From the IMG/VR virus record IMGVR_UViG_3300037189_000455, positions 1 through 22,037 of that record: a DNA stretch of 22,037 bases; one strand, given 5' to 3'. The translations under genes and the position numbers were made by a program. Below are positions 9,134 to 15,416 of the stretch, piece by piece; positions within the stretch are counted from its first letter, which is position 1, and each line of letters begins with the position of its first letter. This stretch comes from a virus. A model generated the notes under the pieces. That model did no database searches, was not told the origin of the DNA, and worked only from the letters and a program-made list of their open reading frames with translations.

Positions 9134-11287
9134 TTAGAAATACTGTCCATTGAATGTCAAGGCTTTTCCTGACAACTGATTCTGCTGGACTCCTTGCGTG
9201 ATGGATGCGACAAGGTCTGTGTTTGAGATGACAGAGCCAGCATTGTTGACAGTGATGTAAAGTCCCCCGCCGATAGATGCAGACGAGTCGGTTGCAGGGG
9301 CGCTAGTGGCAGCAAACATGGAAGTTGAAGTACCTGTGACAGCGCCAAAACCACCACCGCCGCCAGCTTGACCAGCACCGGAGAGTCCCCCGTAATTGTT
9401 TGCGCCGGTGTTATAGGTCTTGGCAGGTATATTCTTCAATGCGTCCAAAATCTTATTTAACTCAGGATCATTGATGGCTTTTTCTGCTGCCGCAATAGCC
9501 GCATCTGCCACAGCAATGGCAGCCTCTGCTGCTTTGGTTGCGGCATCTATATCGGCAACTTGTGTTGCTACAAATGCAGCCCCACTGGTCACATTTGGAT
9601 TGTAAGCGGGGATTGCCTTGAGTGTGGAAATATAAACATCAAGTTGACTCAGAGCGTTGCGCCATCCCATTGCTGCGACGTCACCAGGGTTTGTCAATGC
9701 CTTTGAATAGGTATCAGCGCCAAGAACAGATGCAATGTATGCAACAACTGCCTCTTGCGACTCTCCCCATTTCTTAGCCAACATATTGACTTCATTGACT
9801 GAAATATCTTTATCGGCCAAAGTGCCAAGAATGTCTGCGTATCGCTGAGCCGCAGTATTGTTAGACATCTGAGCTTCATAATTTGCCATCAAACGGGCGT
9901 AAGCCATATCTAGCTCAACATTGTGCTGCTTGAGCAGGTTAAGTCGTACCGCTTCAAGTTGGATTGGGTCTGTCTCAGTTGTTGCAGTAACACCTTTGTT
10001 CGCCAATTGTTTTTGTAACGCTAGGAGTTCCGCAGCAACTTTGGCTGCTTTTATCTGATCCGCAGTGAGTTTCGTTGTTGCACCTGATGTTTTGCCAAGA
10101 CCTTTGAGGTAATCGGCGGTTGTGAGAGCAAGACCCTTGAAGTTGAACTTCAGGTCGCCCACTTTTGCCGCCGCTTTTTCAGCGTCCTTATCAAACTTAT
10201 TTGTGGCCACATTGATTGCTATCAAGGCAACGCCAAATGCCGCTGCCCCTGCCGCTGCCGATATTCCACCGGTGGCGAGGGCTTCGGCTGCGGCTGCGCC
10301 TAGTGAGACTGTGCGAAGTGCTTTCATCACCTTGATGATTGCCATGACAGCAGTAATCATCCCTTGAACTGCCGCCGCTACCTTTGCGCCAAATAGAGCG
10401 GCAACAATAACAGCGCCAAGGACTTCAAAAGTTTTAATGTTGCGAGCTACAAAGCTGAAAGTGTCATACAAAACTTGAGCGAAGGCGACGCCATAAGAAA
10501 TGCCAGTAATAAAGAACGCGGCTATTTTCTTGCCGTTGGCATCCAGCCATTTTTCGATTTGAGGCAAATACTTTGTGAACTTATCAAGGAAAGGTTGCAA
10601 AGCCAAGATGATTGCGTTGCCAATTGTCTTTCTTACCTCGTCAAAAGCCAAGCCGATGCGACCTATCTTGCCAGCAAATGTGTCTGCGGCTGCCGCTGCT
10701 GATCCCTTGGTGGCGGATTCAAGTTCCTTGACGATGCCAACGAAGTCTTTGCTCTTGATAAGAGTCTCAGATAAAGGAATTCCAAGTCGCTTAAGTGCAT
10801 TGAAATTTCCCGCATAAGCCTTTGCAAGTGCGATTGACACAGCAGTCAAATCTTTTCCACGATTTGCACTGACATCAAGTGCAATCTGCTGCAAACTTTC
10901 TGCCTTGGTAATATCGTGAGTGGCAATCAATAACGCCTGAAGGCTTGGACGAAGGAGTTCATCCTGGACGTTGAGGCGAAGCATGGTCTGCTTTATGTAG
11001 GTATTGACTGACGCAATTTGTGAGTCAGTTGCACCTGTAACATTTTGCAAAGTCTTGGCGAGGATAGCCATCGACTGTTCTTCAGCCATTGCAGCTCGGA
11101 CTGAGTCAACGCCCATCTTGATGGCGAATGCTGCCGATGCTGCGGCTGCGATAGCAAAGGACTTTGCAACCTTGTTACCGAAATCGTGAAATTGTTTCCC
11201 TAGTTTTTCAGCATCCTTGGCCGCTGCCTTTGTGCCCTTGTCTGAGTATTCGGAAATGATTCGAGCAATTACTGCGCCTTTTGCCAC
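9134..11287 (-). CDS. tape measure protein
   Basis: A 717-aa protein, the longest gene in the window. It begins at a GTG with GAGG five bases upstream. Seen: an N-terminal amphipathic helical region rich in Ala/Lys, ALAKAYAGNFNALKRLGIPL (about 153-172), a pattern common in phage tape measures, hydrophobic helices at about 255-275, 287-318 and 328-360, a long alpha-helical region, and a Gly-rich C-terminal stretch (SGAGQAGGGGGFGAVTG) before a short beta end. It would set tail length and pass through the tube at DNA entry. The rule of about 1.5 angstrom per residue gives a tail near 105-110 nm. Position after the chaperone genes and before the minor tail protein fits. No lysozyme or peptidase motif is visible in it. 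Confidence 0.93.
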   Translation of the reverse strand: MAKGAVIARIISEYSDKGTKAAAKDAEKLGKQFHDFGNKVAKSFAIAAAASAAFAIKMGVDSVRAAMAEEQSMAILAKTLQNVTGATDSQIASVNTYIKQTMLRLNVQDELLRPSLQALLIATHDITKAESLQQIALDVSANRGKDLTAVSIALAKAYAGNFNALKRLGIPLSETLIKSKDFVGIVKELESATKGSAAAAADTFAGKIGRIGLAFDEVRKTIGNAIILALQPFLDKFTKYLPQIEKWLDANGKKIAAFFITGISYGVAFAQVLYDTFSFVARNIKTFEVLGAVIVAALFGAKVAAAVQGMITAVMAIIKVMKALRTVSLGAAAAEALATGGISAAAGAAAFGVALIAINVATNKFDKDAEKAAAKVGDLKFNFKGLALTTADYLKGLGKTSGATTKLTADQIKAAKVAAELLALQKQLANKGVTATTETDPIQLEAVRLNLLKQHNVELDMAYARLMANYEAQMSNNTAAQRYADILGTLADKDISVNEVNMLAKKWGESQEAVVAYIASVLGADTYSKALTNPGDVAAMGWRNALSQLDVYISTLKAIPAYNPNVTSGAAFVATQVADIDAATKAAEAAIAVADAAIAAAEKAINDPELNKILDALKNIPAKTYNTGANNYGGLSGAGQAGGGGGFGAVTGTSTSMFAATSAPATDSSASIGGGLYITVNNAGSVISNTDLVASITQGVQQNQLSGKALTFNGQYF

Positions 11288-11305: not shown

Positions 11306-11902
11306 TTACCTAGTTTTCTGTGATTCCATTGCTTTTTGAAGGTCTGCTTTTGCAGTATCAAGTGCCTCATCAAAGTTCTTCTCAATCTTGGCTTTATCTC
11401 GATCCACTATGCGCCAAATCATGCGAGAGGCTTTGCCGTAACGATTGGATAAAGTACGTTTGAACTGTTCTCCACTGCCAGCATCCTCGGTAACAGATGA
11501 ACTACCTTGTTTGCGACCTACAATTTCAAAAATTACCCCTGCTGGACTTGCATTTATCAACGCTCCGGCGCTGGTTGTGTAATCCCCTCGCATTTTTCCT
11601 TGCGCTTTGGAAGATTTGATTCCCGCAACCACTGCATTCACATCCCATGCGGGGAAACCTTTATCATCTTTGTTTCCCTTACGCCTTCGAGGATTCTTGG
11701 CGGGTGTTGTTTTCCAACCACTCATCGGAGCGCCAGCCCCATGAACGGAAGCTGTGGTCGCGATTTGTTTTGCATCATTTTTTGCTTTGCGAAGTTCTTT
11801 GTTGATTACTTTGCGAAATTTTTTCAAGGCTTGTTTGTCAAACTCTTTCAGACCTGCAATTGTCTCTTTTACTCCTGAAACAACAACTGCGTTTTGCGCC
11901 AT
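11306..11902 (-). CDS. HK97 gp10-like tail-completion/minor structural protein
   Basis: A 198-aa basic protein. Seen: an N-terminal helix with GVKETIAGLKEFDKQALKKF, a very basic loop (NPRRRKGNK, about 69-77), SPAGVIFEIVGRK (about 119-131), and a C-terminal helical segment MIWRIVDRDKAKIEKNF. The VIFEIVGRK strand and overall layout recall HK97-gp10-like/neck proteins, but the match is weak. The location is unusual: gp10-like genes normally precede the tail-tube gene, while this one sits between the chaperone region and the tape measure. The start is an ATG with GGGAG seven bases upstream; the stop of the -1-frame chaperone extension lies four bases before it. It could instead be an uncharacterised tail protein. 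Confidence 0.6.
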   Translation of the reverse strand: MAQNAVVVSGVKETIAGLKEFDKQALKKFRKVINKELRKAKNDAKQIATTASVHGAGAPMSGWKTTPAKNPRRRKGNKDDKGFPAWDVNAVVAGIKSSKAQGKMRGDYTTSAGALINASPAGVIFEIVGRKQGSSSVTEDAGSGEQFKRTLSNRYGKASRMIWRIVDRDKAKIEKNFDEALDTAKADLQKAMESQKTR

Positions 11903-11906
11903 ATCA

Positions 11907-12062
11907 TCACTCCCGACTTTTGTTCTTCTCTTTCAAATATGCAACGATAGATTCAAGAACACCTTCAGGCGCATCAAGTAAGGACGTCGGAGACAACCCT
12001 GTTTCCACCGAGAGAGCCGCTATTGAATAGGTCAGGCTGTCTCGGTGGATACGAAAGATTCG
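11907..12062 (-). CDS. tail assembly chaperone T extension (-1 frame, by programmed frameshift)
   Basis: An open stretch of 51 codons in the -1 frame relative to chaperone G, overlapping its end and continuing to a TGA at 11909-11907, four bases before the next gene. It contains no ATG. It reads LTYSIAALSVETGLSP, then LLDAPEGVLESIVAYLKEKN, which looks like the second domain of siphovirus chaperones (xTGLSPxxLL, then a helix ending in YL). The shift must occur between 12062 and 12034, because the -1 frame has a stop at 12065-12063 and the zero frame stops at 12034-12032. If it occurs at the TTC codon (12055-12053), the fusion would be about 134 residues. A 10-bp stem starts directly downstream. 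No canonical X-XXY-YYZ heptamer is present; TTC can slip to TTT. Confidence 0.72.
   Translation of the reverse strand, partial: RIFRIHRDSLTYSIAALSVETGLSPTSLLDAPEGVLESIVAYLKEKNKSRE
12004..12049 (-). promoter_or_regulatory. RNA hairpin, probable frameshift stimulator
   Basis: In the transcript UCCACCGAGA (12049-12040) pairs perfectly with UCUCGGUGGA (12013-12004). Inside, after one mismatch, AGCC and GGCU add four more pairs. The hairpin begins three bases after the TTC codon of the G frame and contains the G stop codon. There is no U-run, so it is not a typical terminator. Position and strength fit a -1 frameshift stimulator for the G/GT chaperones. Confidence 0.65.
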
Positions 12063-12310
12063 TCAGTAACCAGTTCCACAGTTTTTACTGTGTCAAGGAA
12101 TTCAGCTCCAAAAGGCTTGACAACCTGTCCGTTGCATTTCAGTGCTTCATGCCCTAACCAATAGATGTGCTCAAGGCGCTGTTGATCCCCAAGCAACTTT
12201 GCAAATCCTGCTCCGAACTTCTGCTCGAACGCAACGATGATTCTTGGTCGCAGTGGATAGGTGAATTCTGATCCATCTGAAAGCACGATTTTTACTGATA
12301 AGCCGTCCAT
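12032..12310 (-). CDS. tail assembly chaperone G
   Basis: A 92-aa protein between the tail-tube genes and the tape measure, the usual place of tail assembly chaperones. Seen: VKIVLSDGSEFTYPLRPR (residues 6-23), a KFGAGFAKLL helix, EHIYWLGHEAL (47-57), and an acidic C-terminus (VELVTDESFVSTETA). The YPL beta start and the Ile/Trp-containing helix resemble small phage chaperone families. The start is an ATG with AAGGGG a few bases upstream. A -1-frame extension continues past the stop and would yield a GT-type fusion. Chaperones of this kind bind and hold the tape measure while the tube polymerises; they are usually absent from the virion. Confidence 0.82.
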   Translation of the reverse strand: MDGLSVKIVLSDGSEFTYPLRPRIIVAFEQKFGAGFAKLLGDQQRLEHIYWLGHEALKCNGQVVKPFGAEFLDTVKTVELVTDESFVSTETA

Positions 12311-12338: not shown

Positions 12339-12746
12339 TTAAGCAGTCGCCTTAGTGATGACGCCGGATACCGGCCAAGTCACTGATGCTGTTGCTAGTT
12401 GACCAATTCCACCCTTGAGTGGAGTCCACTCTGAAACAAGTGCTGAGACTGTGTAGCTCGGATTTGTTGTTGTAGTGGTTGTTGAAACTGGCTTGATGAC
12501 AATTGCTGCGGCTGTGCCGAGCAATGGAAAGATAATTGATTCAACTGATGACGATGCAAAATCCTGGAAGAAGTCGATGCTCACAGAATTATCTGCAAGA
12601 CCAGCAACTCTCTTTTTCGCGGTGTCGCCAAAACTTGTGGTCTCAACGATGTCATATTTTGTATCAAGTGTGACGCTTGAAATGTGGTCACTGAGGTCTG
12701 TTCCTGCGATTGTGATGGAAGGATTGGTGAGAACAAGTTTTGCCAT
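12339..12746 (-). CDS. tail tube protein, second copy
   Basis: A 135-aa tail-tube-like protein, the downstream member of a tandem pair. By hand alignment about 92 of 135 residues match the upstream copy with no gaps. Identical stretches include KRVAGLADNSV-like residues about 45-55, the DFFQD segment, and a 23-residue block beginning at LVSEWTPLKGG, before the closing ITKAT. Beta-rich, Thr/Ser/Val-heavy composition fits a tube subunit fold. The start is an ATG one base after the stop of copy one. Differences concentrate in surface-like positions (residues 8-17 and 60-95). Whether both copies enter the tube or one has a specialised place (for example tip or terminator side) cannot be told. Confidence 0.82.
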   Translation of the reverse strand: MAKLVLTNPSITIAGTDLSDHISSVTLDTKYDIVETTSFGDTAKKRVAGLADNSVSIDFFQDFASSSVESIIFPLLGTAAAIVIKPVSTTTTTTNPSYTVSALVSEWTPLKGGIGQLATASVTWPVSGVITKATA

Positions 12747-12747
12747 G

Positions 12748-13155
12748 TTATGAGGTCGCCTTTGTGATTGATCCGGAGATTGGCCATGTGACTGATGCTG
12801 TTGCTAGTTGTCCAATTCCACCCTTGAGCGGAGTCCATTCTGAGACAAGAGCAGTAAATGTATATGTTGGATTTGTTGTACTTACAGAAGTTGATGCTGG
12901 TTGAACCACAATTGTTGTGGTTGACCCGATAAGAGGATAAATTGTTGCTTCAACATTTGTTGCGGCATAATCTTGGAAGAAGTCCAACATCACAGAATTA
13001 TCTGCAAGACCAGCAACGCGTGTTTTGGCTGTTGAACCAAATCCTGTTGTCTCGATTATGTCCTCTTTTGTGTCAATTGTGATGCTAGAAATATGATCCG
13101 AAAGCACCACCGAGTTGATGGTTACCTTCGCATCCGTCAATACGATTTTAGGCAT
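12748..13155 (-). CDS. tail tube protein, first copy
   Basis: A 135-aa major tail protein candidate. Seen: IVLTDAKVTINSVVLSDHIS near the start, TKEDIIETTGFG (29-40), RVAGLADNSVMLDFFQD (46-62) and SEWTPLKGGIGQLATASVTW (in the C-terminal third). The DxTxxxD-type start, the helix region with FFQD, and the WxPLKGG strand are of the kind seen in actinophage tail-tube proteins. The start ATG overlaps the end of the 60-aa gene by eight bases. The family is assigned from position (after the terminator, before chaperone and tape measure) and composition. This copy and its downstream duplicate are the only tube candidates in the window. Confidence 0.85.
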   Translation of the reverse strand: MPKIVLTDAKVTINSVVLSDHISSITIDTKEDIIETTGFGSTAKTRVAGLADNSVMLDFFQDYAATNVEATIYPLIGSTTTIVVQPASTSVSTTNPTYTFTALVSEWTPLKGGIGQLATASVTWPISGSITKATS

Positions 13156-14673: not shown

Positions 14674-14714
14674 GCATGAGGTTGGTTTGCCAGGGGTACG
14701 AACCAACCTCATGC
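14674..14714 (-). promoter_or_regulatory. 14-bp perfect RNA hairpin after the glycosyltransferase gene
   Basis: GCATGAGGTTGGTT (14674-14687, plus strand) is perfectly repeated in inverted orientation as AACCAACCTCATGC (14701-14714), with a 13-base loop. In the transcript the stem begins in the last codons of the glycosyltransferase gene (stop at 14711-14709) and ends about 20 bases before the connector start. No strong U-run follows (UAUUU only), so it may be a weak terminator, an mRNA-stability or processing element, or a scar of insertion. Confidence 0.7.
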
Positions 14715-15416
14715 TTTGTAATGCTGAATTGCTGCCTCACGCAACGGAGCGTGATGACGTTCATCAAGCCAAAATTGCTTTTGATGAGGCAAAATTGCAC
14801 CTGTGTGAGCATGGATTTTGTAACCCATAGATTTCAAACGCTTTGAAAAAAGTAAATCCTCGCCAAAATATGTGCCGTCAATAGCACCTTCAACGAACCA
14901 AGCCCAATCTTTGCCTTGATTCGCTGTTGCTTGCTTGCGCATGGTCTCCAAGACGCTGCGATGAATAAGTAAGCAACCAGTGCCAGTCGCATCGACTTCC
15001 AGCAGAGTGTCGATTGGGTAATCATCAATAGGCTGCAAACCCTTGTCGGTAGTCATGCGATAAATTGTGGGAACTGCTCGCAAGTTGTCTTTATCATCAA
15101 AAAAAGCTGCGAAAACTAGCCCTGAAACAATTGGGCGGTCTTTGTCGTGAGCTGCGTCAACCAATTTGAAGAATGTCTCCATTGGAAGGCGCTCATCTGA
15201 GTCAATCATTAAGAGCCAAGGTGTCGTTACTTCGTCAAGGAAGTTTCTCACAACCACATTTCGTGATCGAGTGGTCAGTCCGACGTTGGCAACCTGAACC
15301 ATTTGATCCAGTTTTTGTGTCTTATGCCGAGCAATATGAATCAAATCAATAGCCAGTTGGCCGTTTATTTTGCCGTCTGTGACCATTCCAACGCAGATTT
15401 TGTCGGATGTTTTCAT
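14709..15416 (-). CDS. glycosyltransferase, GT-A fold, in the head module
   Basis: A 235-aa GT-A-type glycosyltransferase. Seen: VGMVTDG strand at 9-15, a TTRSRNVVVRNFL helix (48-60), the DxD metal/donor motif IDSD at 71-74, TGTGCLLIHR (145-153), the GEDLLF acceptor-side motif at 185-190 and a C-terminal IHAHTG (201-206) that could coordinate metal. Such enzymes use nucleotide sugars to glycosylate proteins or glycans; the acceptor here is unknown. The start overlaps the preceding 48-aa gene by four bases (ATGA). It sits between the capsid and the connector, a place normally reserved for structural genes. A strong hairpin lies on each side of the two-gene unit, so it looks like a moron. Glycosylation of the capsid or tail is a reasonable guess only. 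Confidence 0.85.
   Translation of the reverse strand: MKTSDKICVGMVTDGKINGQLAIDLIHIARHKTQKLDQMVQVANVGLTTRSRNVVVRNFLDEVTTPWLLMIDSDERLPMETFFKLVDAAHDKDRPIVSGLVFAAFFDDKDNLRAVPTIYRMTTDKGLQPIDDYPIDTLLEVDATGTGCLLIHRSVLETMRKQATANQGKDWAWFVEGAIDGTYFGEDLLFSKRLKSMGYKIHAHTGAILPHQKQFWLDERHHAPLREAAIQHYKA

Follow-up and report, generated by a model that had tools for sequence, protein, structure and literature searches.

A phage from lake water very probably makes a longer form of a tail-assembly helper protein through a one-base backward slip of some of its ribosomes, as judged from comparison of its sequence with those of its relatives. The DNA analysed, hereafter the window, is a stretch of 22,037 nucleotides (IMG/VR record IMGVR_UViG_3300037189_000455), and the features concerned lie on its minus strand (Table 1). 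It is highly likely that a short and a long tail chaperone, G and GT, are produced by a -1 slip of tRNA-Phe at the UUC codon 12055-12053 over a stem spanning 12049-12004. Most ribosomes would terminate at 12034-12032 to release G of 92 residues, and some would be held by the stem while tRNA-Phe sits on UUC. The tRNA would then re-pair one base back on UUU, and reading would continue in the -1 frame (CGU AUC CAC CGA...) until the 11909-11907 stop, giving GT of 134 residues. As in lambda, the two forms would act in a fixed ratio on the proteins of the tape measure and the tail tube.

The anatomy of the locus, the conservation of the -1 frame and the coding of T from an Arg residue onwards, the covariation of the stem and the fixation of U_UUC where a heptamer is absent were obtained directly. 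Events of this kind are known, and the comparison argues convincingly for the presence of one here. The family has no named description in the libraries searched, and the type of slip site is unusual for a tail chaperone gene.

Table 1. Positions of the features of the G/T locus and its neighbours in the window
Feature	Position	Strand	Remarks
Tandem pair of major tail protein genes, directly upstream of G	12339..13155	-	phrog_4574, E 2e-25 and 1.5e-27
Gene G, putative short tail assembly chaperone	12310-12032	-	92 aa; stop TGA 12034-12032
TGA of the -1 frame, bounding the shift on its upstream side	12065-12063	-	
U_UUC, proposed tetramer for the -1 slip (tRNA-Phe UUC -> UUU)	12056-12053	-	T_TTC in 66/66 relatives without a heptamer
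T segment, -1 frame	11907..12053	-	48 codons + stop, begins RIHRDSLTYSIAALSVETG; would give GT of 134 aa
5' arm of 10-bp stem	12049-12040	-	TCCACCGAGA; pairs with 12013-12004
Inner 4-bp extension, 5' arm	12038-12035	-	AGCC, pairs with GGCT
Inner 4-bp extension, 3' arm	12018-12015	-	GGCT
3' arm of 10-bp stem	12013-12004	-	TCTCGGTGGA; perfect pairing with 12049-12040
717-aa ORF, probable tape measure	9134..11287	-	Assigned by position and length; no PHROG match

Conservation of the -1 frame behind gene G

The codons of G up to codon 86 encode the N-terminal part common to G and GT, and the zero-frame codons across the junction are GAC GAA TCT TTC GTA TCC ACC GAG ACA GCC TGA. Beginning at 12062, the -1 frame stays open for 51 codons until its stop at 11909-11907, and T has no ATG and a single GTG at 12008. 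Its stop lies four bases short of the ATG of the next gene (11902-11900). A sequence-only reading of the window had described such a frame, with about 50 codons, no ATG and an end four bases before the next gene; this description is borne out, and all of its coordinates are correct. Since 3.6% of equally long -1 stretches in the other genes of the window are open, the open 51-codon frame by itself is weak evidence. It is significant because it is conserved among relatives.

A search of IMG/VR with profiles of G and T yielded 480 loci, in which some contigs are counted more than once, and 285 distinct G-T regions remain after removal of duplicates and cut records. G is encoded in 477 of the 480 loci and both parts in 474; the three G-containing loci without T are contigs that end before T. 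T is in the -1 frame in 474/474 loci holding both parts (285 distinct sequences). The -1 codon right after the proposed slip encodes Arg in 284/284 sequences through six different codons (CGA, AGA, CGT, CGG, CGC and AGG), and the zero-frame residue overlapping it varies among Glu, Gly, Val and Ala. A later Arg (five codons), a Ser (six codons) and a Leu (five codons) of the -1 frame are likewise fixed in 284/284, the invariant Leu spanning the zero-frame stop of G, and the residues R, I, H, R, S and L after the slip are invariant or nearly so. As judged from these comparisons, the -1 frame is under purifying selection and is translated from the Arg straight after the slip onwards. A chance overlap, which the 3.6% of open stretches might allow, is contradicted by the 474 loci and by this codon-level selection, and so the comparison refutes it with practically no probability left. 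The programmed -1 frameshift and the G/GT arrangement put forward in the sequence-only reading are supported by the same data.

The point at which T is entered can be narrowed down. A -1-frame stop is present at one fixed codon, three codons before the first Arg, in 31/284 relatives, in which T must therefore be entered within the last codons before the Arg. In three relatives (L123:2501-2755, L224:1744-1998 and L226), a zero-frame TAA lies directly 3' of C_CCU_UCC, with G seven codons shorter and T intact; entry into T must therefore occur no later than that point there. It has also been considered that T is a separate protein, unfused to G, made by reinitiation or from an internal start such as GTG 12008, because the stop of G is near this GTG and a GTG is found at this place (offset 45) in 243/285 relatives. 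However, it is missing from the other 42/285, it lies inside the 3' arm of the stem, and in the window it is not preceded by a clear Shine-Dalgarno motif. Any ATG, GTG or TTG within the first 39 nt of T occurs in just 67/285 relatives, and selection on the -1 frame (R, I, H, R, S, L) reaches well upstream of position 12008, making a separate T protein quite improbable.

The U_UUC tetramer and the heptamers of relatives

From the -1 stop to the stop of the zero frame, the window has no canonical X_XXY_YYZ heptamer, which confirms what had been noticed from its sequence. Of the window codons that separate the -1 stop from the conserved Arg, only TTC has a tRNA able to re-pair, on TTT, and the zero-frame T_TTC lies between the two stops with the stem following from 12049, the layout of a Z_ZZN tetramer site. 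The slip sites of the 285 relatives fall into C_CCA_AAY (174), C_CCU_UCY (44), C_CCU_UUU (1) and none of these (66), so that a heptamer is found in 175/285, or in 219/285 when C_CCU_UCY is counted. U_UUC, as TCT TTC, is present in 66/66 of the relatives without a heptamer, the group to which the window belongs, and the bases before it are nearly free (AGT, GAT, GCG, GAA, ACT, GGG and one U CCU). The fixation of U_UUC in these 66 is not circular, because U_UUC played no part in defining them; zero changes within the heptamer itself are partly circular.

Slip-site changes were counted on a tree built from columns outside the junction, and the figures exclude L181, a cut-short outlier inflating the tree length. 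TCT TTC shows 0 changes in the non-heptamer lineages (65 sequences, tree length 8.9) versus 12-20 expected, an expectation based on the heptamer lineages, where the U_UUC codon and its preceding base change 48 times (tree length 21.6). Sequences with a heptamer show drift at the U_UUC codon, and three of them have a stop (TAA) there. A TTC -> TTT slip universal among the relatives is ruled out by TTA, TCC, TCA or TAA at that codon, and it was the relatives with these codons that led to the heptamer one codon upstream. The sequence-only reading had placed the slip at TTC 12055-12053 and called it a weak single-codon type. The position and the single-codon slip are backed by the 66 relatives; the undefined weak type is better replaced by the known Z_ZZN tetramer U_UUC.

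A -1 shift at the preceding codon, TCT 12058-12056, or a two-tRNA slip over TCT TTC would also lead into T. TCT is invariant in the U_UUC lineages, and where a T precedes it (AGT, GAT or ACT before TCT) UUC could accept the tRNA-Ser through a G-U pair at the middle position. However, the preceding base is A in the window (GAA TCT) and G in the GCG and GGG lineages, where tRNA-Ser is unable to re-pair and TTC is still fixed. Only TTC -> TTT works across all 66 relatives, and a shift involving TCT is thus unlikely. A slip of tRNA-Phe on UUC, which would take place from the A site, is preferred. RNA polymerase slippage in place of a ribosomal shift is far less probable still. In 284/285 relatives, homopolymers around the site reach 3 nt at most, too short for programmed polymerase slippage, and the conserved structure is positioned as for ribosomal shifting. 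Some IS elements and bacterial genes do use polymerase slippage (PMC5009743, PMC4066793).

U_UUC is a known, though weaker, class of slip site. The hierarchy of Z_ZZN tetramers in E. coli is A_AAG >> U_UUC > U_UUU, with U_UUC the second-best of 16 when a pseudoknot lies downstream, and C_CCU is likewise shift-prone in E. coli; tetramers of the U_UUC class serve in IS elements (Sharma et al. 2014, PMC4066793). The window shares with these sites a zero-frame U_UUC and a downstream structure. It differs from them in that the gene is of the tail chaperone type, from an uncultured phage, and the structure a plain stem, whereas they were tested with an IS3 pseudoknot in E. coli. The SPP1 chaperone pair 17.5/17.5* also has a putative -1 shift with tRNA-Phe on UUC, but within a full heptamer (UUUUUUC), whereas only the A-site half is slippery in the window (PMC6316719). 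According to PRFect, some SEA-PHAGES chaperones have none of its motifs (PMC10885494). The open-access literature, which does not include the main survey (Xu et al. 2004), yielded no report of a tail chaperone with a lone U_UUC, a weak negative. Frameshift sites are usually sought by their heptamer motif, and therefore chaperone genes with a lone U_UUC escape heptamer-only searches.

The hairpin and the exchange of slip sites

The predicted hairpin has a minimum free energy of -28 kcal/mol over 71 nt (z -4.67), and 0/200 dinucleotide shuffles are as stable. The perfect 10-bp stem and the further 4-bp stem are exactly as the sequence-only reading had given them. Among 180 distinct stems, 96.4% of the main-stem cells are paired, compared with 38-52% when the partner is slid. 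Compensatory changes are seen at two pairs: A-U and C-G each make up about half of the cases at pair 8-43, and both also occur at pair 10-41. If the 3' arm is recoded synonymously, 75% of cells would pair (71% for the window) versus 96% observed (100% for the window). The suggestion that the hairpin carries unusual weight over a weak site is not supported: the mean predicted stem energy is -20.3 in the U_UUC lineages versus -19.6 and -22.2 in the heptamer lineages, and stronger stems in the U_UUC lineages were rejected for want of a clear mean difference. The stem of the window itself is at the strong end, with -26.3. An upstream Shine-Dalgarno stimulator was rejected as a general part of the site, since a Shine-Dalgarno-like motif occurs in just 44/285 relatives.

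The spacer from the A-site codon to the stem is 6 nt for the heptamers and 3 nt for U_UUC, and it is again 6 nt for U_UUC without the lowest 3 bp of the stem. These 3 bp are intact in 218/219 heptamer sequences versus 25/66 of those with U_UUC. Pairing of the inner extension is more frequent in the U_UUC lineages, at 77% of cells versus 43-53% in the heptamer lineages. These differences, which go back to few independent events (4 changes), suggest that the base of the stem adjusts to the position of the slip site. The window keeps the lowest 3 bp and so is not an instance of full spacer adjustment. Its spacer of just 3 nt between UUC and the stem, unless the lowest 3 bp open, counts against the proposed slip, as the spacer measures 5-9 nt in most of the heptamer cases studied, with more variety elsewhere (PMC5009743).

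The heptamer state switches at least five times on the tree. In comparisons of heptamer loss with U_UUC between independent lineages there are only 4 pairs, too few for adequate power, and none of them is opposite in direction (p 0.125-0.5). A scheme somewhat favoured by these data is that the heptamers C_CCA_AAY, C_CCU_UCY and C_CCU_UUU and the U_UUC one codon downstream have been exchanged about five times, with one hairpin serving both kinds of site by releasing its lowest 3 bp and extending its top when the slip is 3 nt closer. C_CCU_UCY, the slip on which requires middle G-U re-pairing, would be a working intermediate in this exchange. The novelty lies in heptamer and tetramer, one codon apart, having replaced each other repeatedly, of which the relatives give a clear natural record, together with a suggested accompanying change at the base of the hairpin. 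The evolution of the slip site is unusually readable in this family, with hundreds of relatives and two kinds of site one codon apart. Its members form a natural set of different slip sites that share a stem and a protein pair. They allow direct measurement of what going from two-tRNA to one-tRNA slippage costs and of how structure and spacing compensate.

Gene context and the relation to known tail chaperones

G follows the major tail proteins and precedes the probable tape measure, which is the gene order of the lambda type. A tape measure gene usually comes directly after T. In the window, a 198-aa gene without a significant family match (11306-11902, minus strand) stands between the two. 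The two tandem major tail proteins are 68% identical and may be tube proteins that differ in role. Both genes occur in 380/388 relatives with enough upstream sequence, and the eight with a single copy include the L244-L249 group. With lambda G/GT (PMC5009743) the window shares a gene between the major tail protein and the tape measure, a short G with a -1 extension T, a shift near the 3' end of G and the expectation of two forms in a ratio. It differs in that no sequence relation is detected, in that X_XXY_YYZ is absent and in the extra gene between T and the probable tape measure.

Neither G nor T has a significant match in Pfam or PHROG. The best Pfam match is Phage_TAC_11 (E 0.04, in 3/29 members). 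The AlphaFold (AF2) model of G has a pLDDT of about 80-90 up to residue 80 and below 50 from residue 86, which is the slip codon and from which the model is disordered, and it has no match among solved PDB structures. Its BFVD matches are mostly unnamed phage proteins of similar length, with one annotated chaperone (E 0.16). A GTDB scan with the G profile found no relative, and blastn and tblastn searches of G and T against named phages gave only Pontimonas phage phiPsal1, with a score at noise level.

phiPsal1 was accepted as a relative because position, frame and T similarity agree. Its gene 016 region (MG835450) has the gene order of the window, and the 717-aa ORF occupies the same place as its annotated tape measure. 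Its G is weakly similar to that of the window (27.5%, E 0.8), and its T segment, also in the -1 frame, is 29-31% identical. phiPsal1 differs in having one major tail protein and a canonical A_AAA_AAA directly before the G stop (TCA AAA AAA TAA). Gene order, the two-frame design and the likeness to phiPsal1 together point to a probable chaperone function of G. The T segment behind A_AAA_AAA in phiPsal1 (L083:3253-3364) is unannotated in MG835450, and phiPsal1 also has a gene where the 198-aa gene of the window sits. Between the capsid and connector genes of the window, the ORF 14709-15416 (minus strand) weakly resembles glycosyltransferases (PF00535, E 0.005, short of the cut-off), and phiPsal1 carries annotated glycosyltransferases in the region matching this ORF.
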